A stretch of DNA of 64,000 bases from Modestobacter versicolor. Its GTDB lineage: Bacteria > Actinomycetota > Actinomycetes > Mycobacteriales > Geodermatophilaceae. The stretch is taken from contig NZ_JACIBU010000001.1 of NCBI RefSeq assembly GCF_014195485.1, forward strand, positions 1,674,001-1,738,000, in the 5' to 3' direction. Positions 9,958-22,674 of the stretch are shown piece by piece. A program made the position numbers and the translations under genes. A model generated the notes under the pieces. It did no database searches. It was given only the letters and a program-made list of their open reading frames with translations, and was not told the origin of the DNA. Each line of letters opens with the position of its first letter. Positions within the stretch are counted from its first letter, which is position 1.

Positions 9958-11703
9958 TCAGCGGAGCCGGCGGGTGTTGTCCGGCTGGCGCACGGTGATG
10001 CCGCGGGCGTCCAGCCACTCGGCCAACGGCACCGCGACCCGACGGGTGGTCTGCCACGCCTGGCGGGCGTCGCTGAGGGTGAACGGCTGCGGCAGCGCCG
10101 CGAGCCGGGCCCGCGCCACCTCGGCGATCCCCGGCGCGAGGTAGATCCCCTCGGAGATCCGCACCAGCTGCTCGTCGCGCACCGCCGCCGCGAGCTCCCG
10201 TGGCCCCAGTCCCGCCGCGGTCAGGTCACCGGCCTCGGGCGCGGCGAACGGCGCCCCGGCCAGCCGGGCCCGGACCCCGTCCACGGCCTGCTGCACCTCC
10301 GGCGGGAGCGCCGCCGCACCGGCCACGACCCGCCCGTCGCGCAGCGCCAGCGGCTCCCGCACCAGGGCGGGCACCAGCTCCACGTCAGGCAACTCGAGCG
10401 CCGAGCGCAGCACCGCGATCGGCGGCCCCGGCTCCAGCGGCCGCAGCTGGCGGTACCGGGCCACCACCCGCGGCACCCGCGCTGCCAGCTCGTCGGCCAG
10501 CCCGGGGGCGATCAGCCACCGCCCGACGGCGGTCGCCTCCGCCGGCACCGGCCACCCCATCGCCACGAAGTCCGCGCGCCGCACGAACCGCCGGCGCACC
10601 AGGTCCGCCCGCGCGCCGGCCTCACCCAGCGGCTGCTCCGCCAGCTCCGCCGCGCGGCTGCGGGCAGCGCCCCGCCGGCGCAGCTCCGGAGGGTCGACGT
10701 CGCGCACGTCGGCGCCGAACACCCGCCGCGCCCCCGGGTCGCGCAGCAGCAGCCGGTCGCCCACCCGCAGCGGCAGCTCTGCGGCCAGCCGGAGCCGCAG
10801 CGCCGTCCCGTCCAGCGGCCGCACCCGGGCCGCGACCGTCGCCGAGCCGATGTGCACCACCAGCTCCGCGGGCAGCCGGTCCTCGACAGCCGCGACCAGC
10901 GAGACGTCGAGGTCCGCGGTGCGCCGGAACGCGTCGGGGGTGAGCAGCGCGTCGCCGCGGGAGATCTCCTCGACCGCCACACCGCGCAGGTTCAGCGCGA
11001 CCCGGGCCGTGGCCGTCGCCGACTCCACCGCGGCACCCAGCGACTGCAGCCCGCGCACGGTCACCGGCCGGCCGCCCAGGTCGAGCCGGTCGCCGCTGGT
11101 CACCGTCCCGGCGGCCAGCGTGCCGGTGACCACCGTGCCCGCACCGCGGATCGTGAACGCCCGGTCCACCCACAGCCGCACCGGTGCGGCCGGGTCGGGC
11201 GCCGGCAACCCGGCGAGCACCTGCTCCAGCACACCGGACAGCTCCGGCAGCCCGTCGCCGGACCGAGCGCTGACCGCCACCGCCGGCAGCCGACCCAGCG
11301 ACGTCCCCGCCAACCGGTCCAGCGCGTCGGCGAGCACCGGGGCGGGATCGGCCAGGTCGGACTTGGTGACCGCGAGCAACCCGTGCCGCACGCCCAGCGC
11401 GTCCAGCACGGCGACGTGCTCGGCGGTCTGCGCCGACCACCCGTCGTCCGCCGCGACGACGACGAGCGCGGCCGGGACCGAGCCGACGCCGGCGAGCATG
11501 TTGCCGACGAACCGCTCGTGGCCGGGCACGTCGACCACGGCGAGCCGGCGGCCCGAGGGCAGCGTGGTCCAGGCGAACCCGAGGTCGATGGTCAGGCCGC
11601 GCCGCCGCTCCTCCTCCCACCGGTCCGGCTCCATGCCGGTGAGCGCCCGCACCAGCGTCGACTTGCCGTGGTCGACGTGGCCGGCAGTGGCGATCACGTC
11701 CAC
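9958..11703 (-). CDS. selB: Selenocysteine-specific elongation factor SelB
   Basis: SelB delivers Sec-tRNA-Sec to ribosomes stalled at a recoded stop codon next to a SECIS hairpin. The 581 residues show an EF-Tu-like G domain (G1 GHVDHGKST at 8-16, G3 DVPGHE, G4 TKSD), two beta-barrel domains, and a C-terminal run of winged helices (about 390-581) that would bind SECIS RNA. In this genome the cognate tRNA reads UAG. GTG 11703 overlaps the end of selA by ten bases, so the two are coupled. Order selC-selA-selB on one strand. Confidence 0.95.
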   Translation of the reverse strand: MDVIATAGHVDHGKSTLVRALTGMEPDRWEEERRRGLTIDLGFAWTTLPSGRRLAVVDVPGHERFVGNMLAGVGSVPAALVVVAADDGWSAQTAEHVAVLDALGVRHGLLAVTKSDLADPAPVLADALDRLAGTSLGRLPAVAVSARSGDGLPELSGVLEQVLAGLPAPDPAAPVRLWVDRAFTIRGAGTVVTGTLAAGTVTSGDRLDLGGRPVTVRGLQSLGAAVESATATARVALNLRGVAVEEISRGDALLTPDAFRRTADLDVSLVAAVEDRLPAELVVHIGSATVAARVRPLDGTALRLRLAAELPLRVGDRLLLRDPGARRVFGADVRDVDPPELRRRGAARSRAAELAEQPLGEAGARADLVRRRFVRRADFVAMGWPVPAEATAVGRWLIAPGLADELAARVPRVVARYRQLRPLEPGPPIAVLRSALELPDVELVPALVREPLALRDGRVVAGAAALPPEVQQAVDGVRARLAGAPFAAPEAGDLTAAGLGPRELAAAVRDEQLVRISEGIYLAPGIAEVARARLAALPQPFTLSDARQAWQTTRRVAVPLAEWLDARGITVRQPDNTRRLR

Positions 11704-13004
11704 CGACGAGCCACCTCCAGCACCGCGGCGGTCAGCGCCCGGTCGTCGTCCGGGGCGAGGCTGCGCAGGTCGAGCAACGTCCGGTCCTCGTCGACGTAGC
11801 CGACGACCGGAACGGGCCCCAGCCGCAGCGGCTCGGCGAACCGGACGTCCAGCGCCACGGCCACGCTGGGCAGCGGGAACTCCGGCGCCCCTCCCCCGCC
11901 CACCCGGGCGGTCGAGCCGACGACGGCGGCCCGCACCCCGGCGACCCGCAACGCCTCCGCCACCGCCGTCGCCCGGGACCGCAGCCCGCCCAGGTCGGCG
12001 TCGAGCATCTGCCGCACCGGCGGCACCGGCCCGCGCAGCGTGGCCTCCAGCGCGGCCAGCGTCGTCTTGTCCACCCGCAGCGCCCGGTACAGCGGGTGCC
12101 GGCGCAGCCGCTGGACCAGCTCGGCCCGGCCGAGCACGATGCCGGCCTGCGGTCCGCCGAGCAGCTTGTCGCCGCTGCACAGCGCCAGGTCGGCGCCGGC
12201 CGCCAGGGTGGTCTGCAGGTCGGGCTCACCGGGCAGCAGCGGGTGCGGGCGCAGCAGCCCGCTGCCGACGTCGGCGACCAGCGGCACACCGGTGCCGGCC
12301 AGCGCGGGGGCCAGCTCGTCGACCTCGACGGCCCGGGTGAAGCCGCGGACGACGAAGTTCGACGGGTGCACCTTGAGCACCGCGCCGGTGCCCGGGCCGA
12401 GCGCGTCGGTGTAGTCGGCGAGCGAGACCCGGTTCGTCGTGCCGACCTCGCGCAGCCGGGCGCCGGTGCTGACCAGCAGGTCCGGGATCCGGAAGCCGTC
12501 GCCGATCTCGACCAGCTCGCCGCGGGCGATGACCAGCTCACCGCCCAGCGCCGTCGCGACCAGGGCCAGGGCGGCGGCGCAGTTGTTCACCACCAGCGCG
12601 GCCTCGGCAGCGGGGACGGCGTCCAGCAGCGCCGACAGCGCACCCTCCCCGCGCGGGCCGCGCCGGCCGGTGCGCAGGTCGAGCTCGACGTCGGTGGTGC
12701 CGCTGGCCGCGGCGACGGCGTCCACGGCGGCCGGTGACAGCGGCGCCCGGCCGAGGTTGGTGTGCACCAGCACGCCGGTCGCGTTCAGCACCGGGCGCAG
12801 GCTGCTCGCGGTGCCGGGCAGCGCGCCGAGCACCGCGGCCACGACGTCGCCCGGGGGCAGGTCGCCGTCCCGGACCCGCTGCTGGGCGGCCTGCACCGCG
12901 CTCTTCACCAGCTCCCGGCCCAGCCGCGCGGCCGCGGCCGCCACCGGCGGCTCGGCCAGCACGGCGTCGGTGCGGGGAACCGAGCGGCGGGGGTCTCCGG
13001 TCAT
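11694..13004 (-). CDS. selA: L-seryl-tRNA(Sec) selenium transferase SelA
   Basis: Pyridoxal-phosphate enzyme that converts Ser-tRNA-Sec to Sec-tRNA-Sec with selenophosphate. 436 residues, close to the family norm. The N-terminal tRNA-binding region (about 1-70) is followed by the fold-type-I core; the PLP lysine is Lys280 in SGDKLLGGPQ. NATGVLVHTNLGRAPLS and VEIGDGFRIPD are typical SelA segments. It starts 88 bases after the tRNA-Sec gene (13093-13188) and overlaps selB, giving a compact selC-selA-selB unit. SelD, which supplies selenophosphate, is encoded at 21667 on the other strand. Confidence 0.96.
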   Translation of the reverse strand: MTGDPRRSVPRTDAVLAEPPVAAAAARLGRELVKSAVQAAQQRVRDGDLPPGDVVAAVLGALPGTASSLRPVLNATGVLVHTNLGRAPLSPAAVDAVAAASGTTDVELDLRTGRRGPRGEGALSALLDAVPAAEAALVVNNCAAALALVATALGGELVIARGELVEIGDGFRIPDLLVSTGARLREVGTTNRVSLADYTDALGPGTGAVLKVHPSNFVVRGFTRAVEVDELAPALAGTGVPLVADVGSGLLRPHPLLPGEPDLQTTLAAGADLALCSGDKLLGGPQAGIVLGRAELVQRLRRHPLYRALRVDKTTLAALEATLRGPVPPVRQMLDADLGGLRSRATAVAEALRVAGVRAAVVGSTARVGGGGAPEFPLPSVAVALDVRFAEPLRLGPVPVVGYVDEDRTLLDLRSLAPDDDRALTAAVLEVARRWT

Positions 13005-13092: not shown

Positions 13093-13188
13093 TGGCGGAG
13101 ACGGACGGGAATCGAACCCGCCTGACCGAGGTGCTCGGCCACGTCGGCTTTAGAGGCCGCGGGGGTCACCAGACACCCTGACGTCTCC
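13093..13188 (-). tRNA. selC: tRNA-Sec with anticodon CUA (decodes UAG), CCA encoded
   Basis: 96 nt including the encoded CCA. The 5' GGAGACG pairs with CGTCTCC; this stacks on a six-pair T stem around the loop TTCGATT, giving the 13-pair acceptor/T helix typical of tRNA-Sec. An extended D arm with a TGGT loop and a long variable arm (TGGCCGA with TCGGTCA) fit Sec. The discriminator is G73. The anticodon loop is CTCTAAA closed by GGC/GCC, so bases 34-36 are CTA (plus strand 13151-13153 reads tag). The normal anticodon is UCA. It lies 88 bases before selA. A TAGGCT that could be the -10 lies 7 bases upstream of the 5' end. Confidence 0.95.

Positions 13189-21666: not shown

Positions 21667-22674
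<1,008 letters not shown>

Follow-up and report, generated by a model that had tools for sequence, protein, structure and literature searches.

Modestobacter versicolor almost certainly inserts selenocysteine (Sec) at UAG in a SECIS-directed way, by means of a complete bacterial Sec system with a single tRNA-Sec of anticodon CUA, encoded in the window, the whole 64,000-nucleotide stretch of DNA analysed here. The computed evidence comprises the tRNA and its machinery, the TAG sites, covarying hairpins, a joint switch of codon and anticodon and a single SelA group of CUA genomes. The UAG-decoding tRNA-Sec of Geodermatophilaceae was reportedly described by Mukai et al. in 2016. According to the available parts of PMC5330540, three Geodermatophilaceae genomes have a CUA tRNA-Sec, a discovery attributed there to ref. 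56 (Mukai et al. 2016) and in line with what an earlier, sequence-only reading of the window had stated; the same parts name FDH and UGSC-motif genes, with an AhpC gene added, as selenoproteins read at UAG. The central claim is thus already known, UAG-Sec in this family having been published in 2016-2017, and the present genome is a further, well-supported member. The window contains the following parts of the system.

13093..13188, minus strand: selC, the tRNA-Sec gene, 96 nt, with G73-CCA encoded (Rfam RF01852, ARAGORN, alignment with relatives)
13151..13153, minus strand: anticodon CTA (CUA) in the loop CTCTAAA, with a C-G closing pair (sequence reading and ARAGORN)
11694..13004, minus strand: selA, L-seryl-tRNA(Sec) selenium transferase (TIGR00474, 406.2 bits; PF03841)
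about 9958..11697, minus strand: selB, Sec-specific elongation factor (TIGR00475, 279 bits; GTPase domain; winged helix PF09107)
21667..22674, plus strand: selD, selenide water dikinase (TIGR00476, 390.6 bits)

The Rfam covariance model RF01852, to which the sequence-only reading had proposed folding the RNA, matched positions 13097-13188 of the minus strand with 64.3 bits (E 8.9e-11), above its gathering score of 47, and ARAGORN reported a 96-nt gene at 13093-13188 with anticodon cta. These results, together with direct reading of the sequence, agree with the description of a 96-nt tRNA-Sec with a long variable arm, a G-CCA end and a loop CTCTAAA closed by GGC/GCC that carries the anticodon CTA. 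The 13-pair acceptor/T helix also claimed for it was found by eye to consist, in its 8+5 arrangement, of 12 standard pairs (one of them G.U) and a U8.C mismatch in place of the thirteenth. Both mismatched bases are invariant in the 12 rows of a tRNA-Sec alignment (in which the window gene is present twice), UCA rows included, indicating that the mismatch is no defect peculiar to the window gene. The gene thus shows the marks of a bacterial tRNA-Sec, namely a model score above gathering, a long variable arm, the 8/5 helix and G73. A search of the whole genome with RF01852 (two contigs, 4,593,513 bases, completeness 99.16) found no second tRNA-Sec, with a UCA anticodon or otherwise, which the sequence-only reading had named as the finding that would speak against UAG; the four other matches were three tRNA-Ser genes and one tRNA-Leu gene.

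ARAGORN printed the label 'tRNA-Pyl' for the gene, which we attribute to its CUA anticodon, and CUA tRNA-Sec genes are easily misread in this way. The label is what speaks for a tRNA-Pyl that reads UAG as pyrrolysine, but the gene scores as tRNA-Sec, has a long variable arm where a short one is expected of tRNA-Pyl, and adjoins selA and selB, and TAG occupies the Sec/Cys position in FdhA and UGSC proteins, accompanied by a SECIS-like hairpin. Pyrrolysine is therefore an extremely improbable reading. The profile matches of selA, selB and selD bear out the arrangement noticed from the letters, with selA and selB directly after the tRNA and selD 8.5 kb away, and supply the three proteins of a bacterial Sec-decoding system. 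The start of selB is a GTG at 11697 or 11703 and overlaps the end of selA. The window SelA is 89% identical to that of Geodermatophilaceae bacterium URHA0031 and 86-87% identical to those of the nearest Modestobacter species.

Three genes found in the M. versicolor genome, fdhA and two members of the UGSC family, have TAG in frame at the Sec position, and just 3' of it each has a SECIS-like hairpin to which SelB is predicted to bind. When the genome was searched for molybdopterin oxidoreductases, one gene split by a single TAG came up, fdhA. Read through the TAG, which lies in the context NQARI-U-HSSTVPG with the frame open on both sides, it encodes an actinobacterial formate dehydrogenase whose match to NF041513 (1904 bits) is full-length. 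The first UGSC-TAG gene scored 155.4 bits with NF041046 and 210.6 bits with PF24696; the second (130.3 and 173.8 bits, respectively) was found by protein search, as were two stop-free UGSC paralogues, both with TGC (Cys) at the Sec position. The FdhA homologue that the sequence-only reading had proposed to look for was thus found, plus two UGSC genes, and the selenoprotein genes do not all use TGA, the three found having TAG at the Sec site (the TGA search was of limited sensitivity). The genome therefore combines a CUA anticodon with TAG at the fdhA Sec site, and no competing UCA tRNA-Sec was found in it.

A SECIS model built from relatives and the genome's own fdhA (R1) returned only weak own-genome sites beyond fdhA and placed the first UGSC site at E 0.92, under two chance sites, so that the identity of this gene comes from its protein frame and profile. 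With a second model (R2), the strong scores of the three TAG sites arise by construction, all three being rows of its alignment. None of the best 5 of 25 own-genome R2 hits (E < 0.05) was a TGA selenoprotein gene, and the hits read in G000 and G059, out of 17 loci read from seven genomes, likewise showed no TGA site; this is a weak negative because R2 also missed the TGA hairpin of an AhpD-like gene in G059, described below, whose loop begins 16 nt after the codon versus 18 nt in the others. It is very unlikely that UAG and UGA both encode Sec in the M. versicolor genome through an undetected second system, as Geodermatophilus sp. LHW52908 (G059) seems to do with a second tRNA: the genome has one tRNA-Sec, pairing of CUA with UGA is impossible by standard rules, and the best R2 hits, within the sensitivity of that search, include no TGA site. 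Two further SECIS-like sites of the genome were rejected on our reading, L300 as an ordinary gene end and L379 as an antisense frame. AhpC/TSA selenoproteins were rejected as well, as none of the five AhpC/TSA matches in the genome contains a stop. The pattern GAYTAGGGNWSNTGYAC was matched in 36 of 112 family genomes (8 of 112 for a reversed control pattern), and all 30 places read, out of 40, were UGSC frames; it had no match in the M. versicolor genome because the UGSC genes there read UGSCS, not UGSCT. In three genomes (loci L201, L208 and L209 of G005, G019 and G020, respectively) the UGSC-TAG gene has a CMD/AhpD-like peroxidase-related gene nearby, a hint to UGSC function.

The hairpins of the fdhA and UGSC-TAG genes have a common layout, in which TAG is followed by a stem with an RGUNU loop that starts 18 nt past the codon. 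Up to seven stem pairs are present in fdhA and in the first UGSC type; in all 13 UGSC-TAG genes of one set, the two of M. versicolor included, the outer two pairs are absent and the inner five form. Of 44 fdhA hairpins (45 loci less L151, which was set aside for a wrongly picked-up TAG and whose correct site was read separately), 41 paired at all seven positions and three at six. The fourth pair, formed by the third codon positions of Val and Gly, appears as C-G, G-U, U-A and G-C and is always paired. Covariation in the fdhA stem was 0.610, compared with a shuffled mean of 0.194 and none of 500 shuffles as high (25 distinct sequences), and did not exceed 0.201 when the stem was slid along the alignment. 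A measure of further pair types was less striking, being reached by 50 of 500 shuffles in the fdhA set and 30 of 500 in the combined TAG, TGA and UGSC set. The inner five pairs were standard in 120 of 120 cells across rows of TAG fdhA, TGA fdhA and the second UGSC type. The hairpin thus covaries and is common to TAG and TGA genes.

The loop sequence RGTNT was present in every TAG UGSC gene (13/13 in one set and 30/30 in another) and in none of eight TGC (Cys) paralogues, including the two of M. versicolor; L333, which lacks a readable UGSC motif, was left out of this reading. The loss in the Cys paralogues is an internal control, but not a purely RNA-level signal, because amino acids change at the same place.

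Across the family, codon and anticodon were found to change together. We searched 112 Geodermatophilaceae genomes and found tRNA-Sec at E 1e-9 or better in 108, with 110 matches, all of which were read: 102 had the anticodon CUA and eight UCA. The CUA matches are spread over 101 genomes of nine genera. Seven of the UCA matches are the sole match of genomes in three other genera, and the eighth is a second copy in G059. The pair closing the anticodon stem was C-G in all 102 CUA tRNAs and T-A (U-A) in all eight UCA tRNAs, and U-A also in all 28 UCA tRNAs of a second locus set. L109 gave a false ARAGORN call, which was set aside. G037 has two CUA matches on different contigs, L039 (G037:C168) and L128 (G037:C25); its assembly is fragmented and 88% complete, and the second copy is either a real duplicate or an assembly copy.

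With a cut-off of E 1e-60, fdhA was detected in 100 of the 112 genomes (122 matches). Exactly one TAG was present in 118 of these matches and TGA in none, and the remaining four ended before the site. By genome, TAG was found in 98 of the 100, and the other two had only matches ending before the site. The position of the TAG was read in 45 fdhA loci. At the same threshold, no fdhA match was found in the UCA genera g6-g8. In an order-level sample of 298 genomes, of which 205 had an fdhA match (family members included), every fdhA outside the family had TGA among the matches listed, and TGA stood at the Sec codon in all 12 that were fetched; the fdhA of G209 has an extra TAG besides the TGA, its Sec codon still being TGA. 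The inference in the sequence-only reading that this genome inserts Sec at UAG is supported by the single CUA tRNA-Sec, the three TAG genes with a SECIS-like hairpin and the occurrence of TAG in fdhA within the family and TGA outside it. In G080, both fdhA copies (L174 and L175) are frame-shifted at a place where a stretch carrying the Sec codon and the hairpin is missing, which is likely a deletion or an assembly fault.

In a midpoint-rooted drawing of a SelA tree with 86 rows, the 38 CUA rows lay on one side of one branch (100/100). Fifteen of the 86 rows had no tRNA label, and rows L193 and L194 took theirs from a tRNA at another place in their genome. The CUA group adjoined the UCA genomes G067 and G070 (99/95), and the other UCA members of the family stood apart (100/98), with weak branches in between. 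Most simply, the change from UGA and UCA to UAG and CUA occurred within Geodermatophilaceae, once, with the SECIS hairpins unaltered. SelB reads the SECIS hairpin, and as the unaltered hairpins suggest, codon and anticodon could for this reason shift without a change in SelA, SelB or SECIS. Two minor observations were made on the selA loci. The row L053 (SPQJ01000003.1), titled 'Bacillus sp. AZ43' (UNVERIFIED_ORG), has a CUA tRNA-Sec and lies among Blastococcus rows, and is likely mislabelled. Seven loci of a Saccharopolyspora group (L079, L081, L083, L085, L089, L101 and L107) had no tRNA-Sec by ARAGORN within about 10 kb on either side, unlike many relatives.

UAG also seems to be an ordinary stop in the M. 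versicolor genome. Among 34 window ORFs chosen by composition, 30 ended in TGA, four in TAG and none in TAA; three of the TAG-ending ORFs encode 372-1102 aa, and the fourth is short and doubtful. Hence, of the statement in the sequence-only reading that Sec is assigned to UAG, the insertion at UAG is supported, and the assignment is better described as SECIS-directed recoding. This stop usage would fit in-frame TAGs that are nonsense mutations in pseudogenes or sequencing errors, with the tRNA a general amber suppressor or a relic, but that account has very little probability given that TAG recurs in 98 of the 100 family genomes with an fdhA match, that the fdhA frame is open on both sides of it, that third codon positions covary so as to preserve the hairpin, and that TAG UGSC genes, unlike Cys paralogues, retain the loop. 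The move of Sec to UAG may, as a hypothesis, have eased competition at the commonest terminator of this GC-rich genome, in which TGA looks to be the usual stop.

In SECIS-directed recoding of UAG, charging, decoding, hairpin dependence and release factor competition would proceed by analogy with the known pathway. Seryl-tRNA synthetase would charge the CUA tRNA-Sec with serine, which SelA would turn into Sec with selenophosphate from SelD. SelB would bring Sec-tRNA-Sec to a ribosome paused at UAG, acting only where a hairpin with the apical loop RGUNU (SECIS) stands just after the codon, and the competitor of Sec would be release factor 1 and no longer release factor 2. The targets in this genome would be fdhA and the two UGSC-family genes, and the process as a whole would differ from the standard bacterial pathway in a single part, the anticodon.

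The canonical bacterial UGA system is that of E. coli, with selABCD and fdhF. The M. versicolor system shares with it SelA, SelB, SelD, tRNA-Sec and a SECIS right after the codon, and outgroup actinobacteria have the same fdhA hairpin after TGA; it differs in the CUA anticodon, the UAG codon and, presumably, competition with release factor 1. As far as the available parts of the published account go, the Geodermatophilaceae systems described there agree with the present one in family, in the CUA tRNA-Sec and in the TAG Sec sites of FDH and UGSC-motif genes. Our analysis differs from those parts of the account in two UGSC-TAG genes beside two Cys paralogues, in the reading of 110 tRNA matches in 108 genomes with UCA lineages in the family, and in the U-A to C-G change of the anticodon-stem closing pair. 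In the parts available, PMC5756416 describes an Aeromonas salmonicida tRNA-Sec with the anticodon ACA, which likewise pairs an anticodon variant with a matching codon change, but recodes a sense (Cys) codon whereas M. versicolor recodes a stop, and PMC10778597 names UAG, UAA and ten sense codons as Sec codons. Since UAG has replaced UGA as the Sec codon across this genus-rich family, with tRNA, targets and hairpins all traceable, a codon change can be studied stepwise.

Geodermatophilus sp. LHW52908 (G059) contains two tRNA-Secs. A CUA tRNA-Sec lies beside the only selA found, and TAG is present in fdhA and one UGSC gene. The second tRNA-Sec, on contig C17, is a UCA tRNA with the top score among the family matches, and an AhpD-like gene lies about 300 bp from it.

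L121 1169-1263, minus strand (G059:C17): UCA tRNA-Sec (RF01852, 81.8 bits)
L121 1579-2157, plus strand (G059:C17): AhpD-like gene split by one TGA (PF02627, TIGR01926, NF041238)

Read through the TGA, the AhpD-like gene matched PF02627 (E 1.9e-6) and TIGR01926 (E 1.7e-32), and its match to NF041238, 'AhpD_rel_CFYUT (seleno)protein', was below the cut-off of that model. The TGA takes the place of the second Cys, an active-site cysteine, in a CxxC motif (CFYU in this gene) that is present in all three aligned homologues. The hairpin ACGCAG[AGTTT]CTGCGT begins 10 nt after the TGA. A SECIS pattern scan gave 26 TGA matches in 1.61 Mb of 80 loci. At that rate the 69 kb of C17 would hold about one, and one was found; the scan alone is not significant, and the case for the AhpD-like gene depends on its protein match across the TGA.

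The UCA tRNA and the AhpD-like gene lie in an apparent island (L121 1-6900). Contig C17 starts with a transposase-type gene, and an IS110-type transposase closes a low-GC stretch, the GC content being 59-65% in kb 1-6 and 70% or more beyond. The island also holds a JAB-domain gene and two ORFs of 526 and 275 aa, neither with a Pfam or NCBIfam match. By tetranucleotide use, a rough measure, the first 7 kb is nearest Planotetraspora, a Pseudonocardiales MAG and Nonomuraea, and the rest is nearest Geodermatophilaceae, its last third being nearest a Geodermatophilus, followed by the sel locus of LHW52908 itself. This pattern points to an integrated island, not a foreign contig; a chimeric assembly of C17 is a conceivable alternative. 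We consider it reasonably likely that LHW52908 is a natural dual-code genome, in which the CUA tRNA reads UAG, an acquired island supplies the UCA tRNA-Sec and a UGA-encoded AhpD-like selenoprotein, and one SelA serves both. Among the papers listed by searches of the open-licence literature, none stood out as reporting a genome with two Sec codons. If LHW52908 is such a genome, a selenoprotein gene accompanied by its own tRNA would be able to move into a cell with a different Sec codon, and the two-tRNA state would be a plausible bridge for the change from UGA to UAG in Geodermatophilaceae. The UCA lineages near the CUA group (G067 and G070) and the two-tRNA Geodermatophilus offer a before, an after and a possible in-between.

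Transfer of such an island is plausible because plasmid-borne Sec cassettes exist in Tsukamurella and Arthrobacter. A Tsukamurella plasmid (L388 1646-11198) and an Arthrobacter conjugative plasmid (L389 1375-11248) each carry a whole cassette, consisting of a TGA fdh, its partner subunits, selD, a UCA tRNA-Sec, selA and selB, and the Arthrobacter cassette is adjoined by a Tn3-family transposase.
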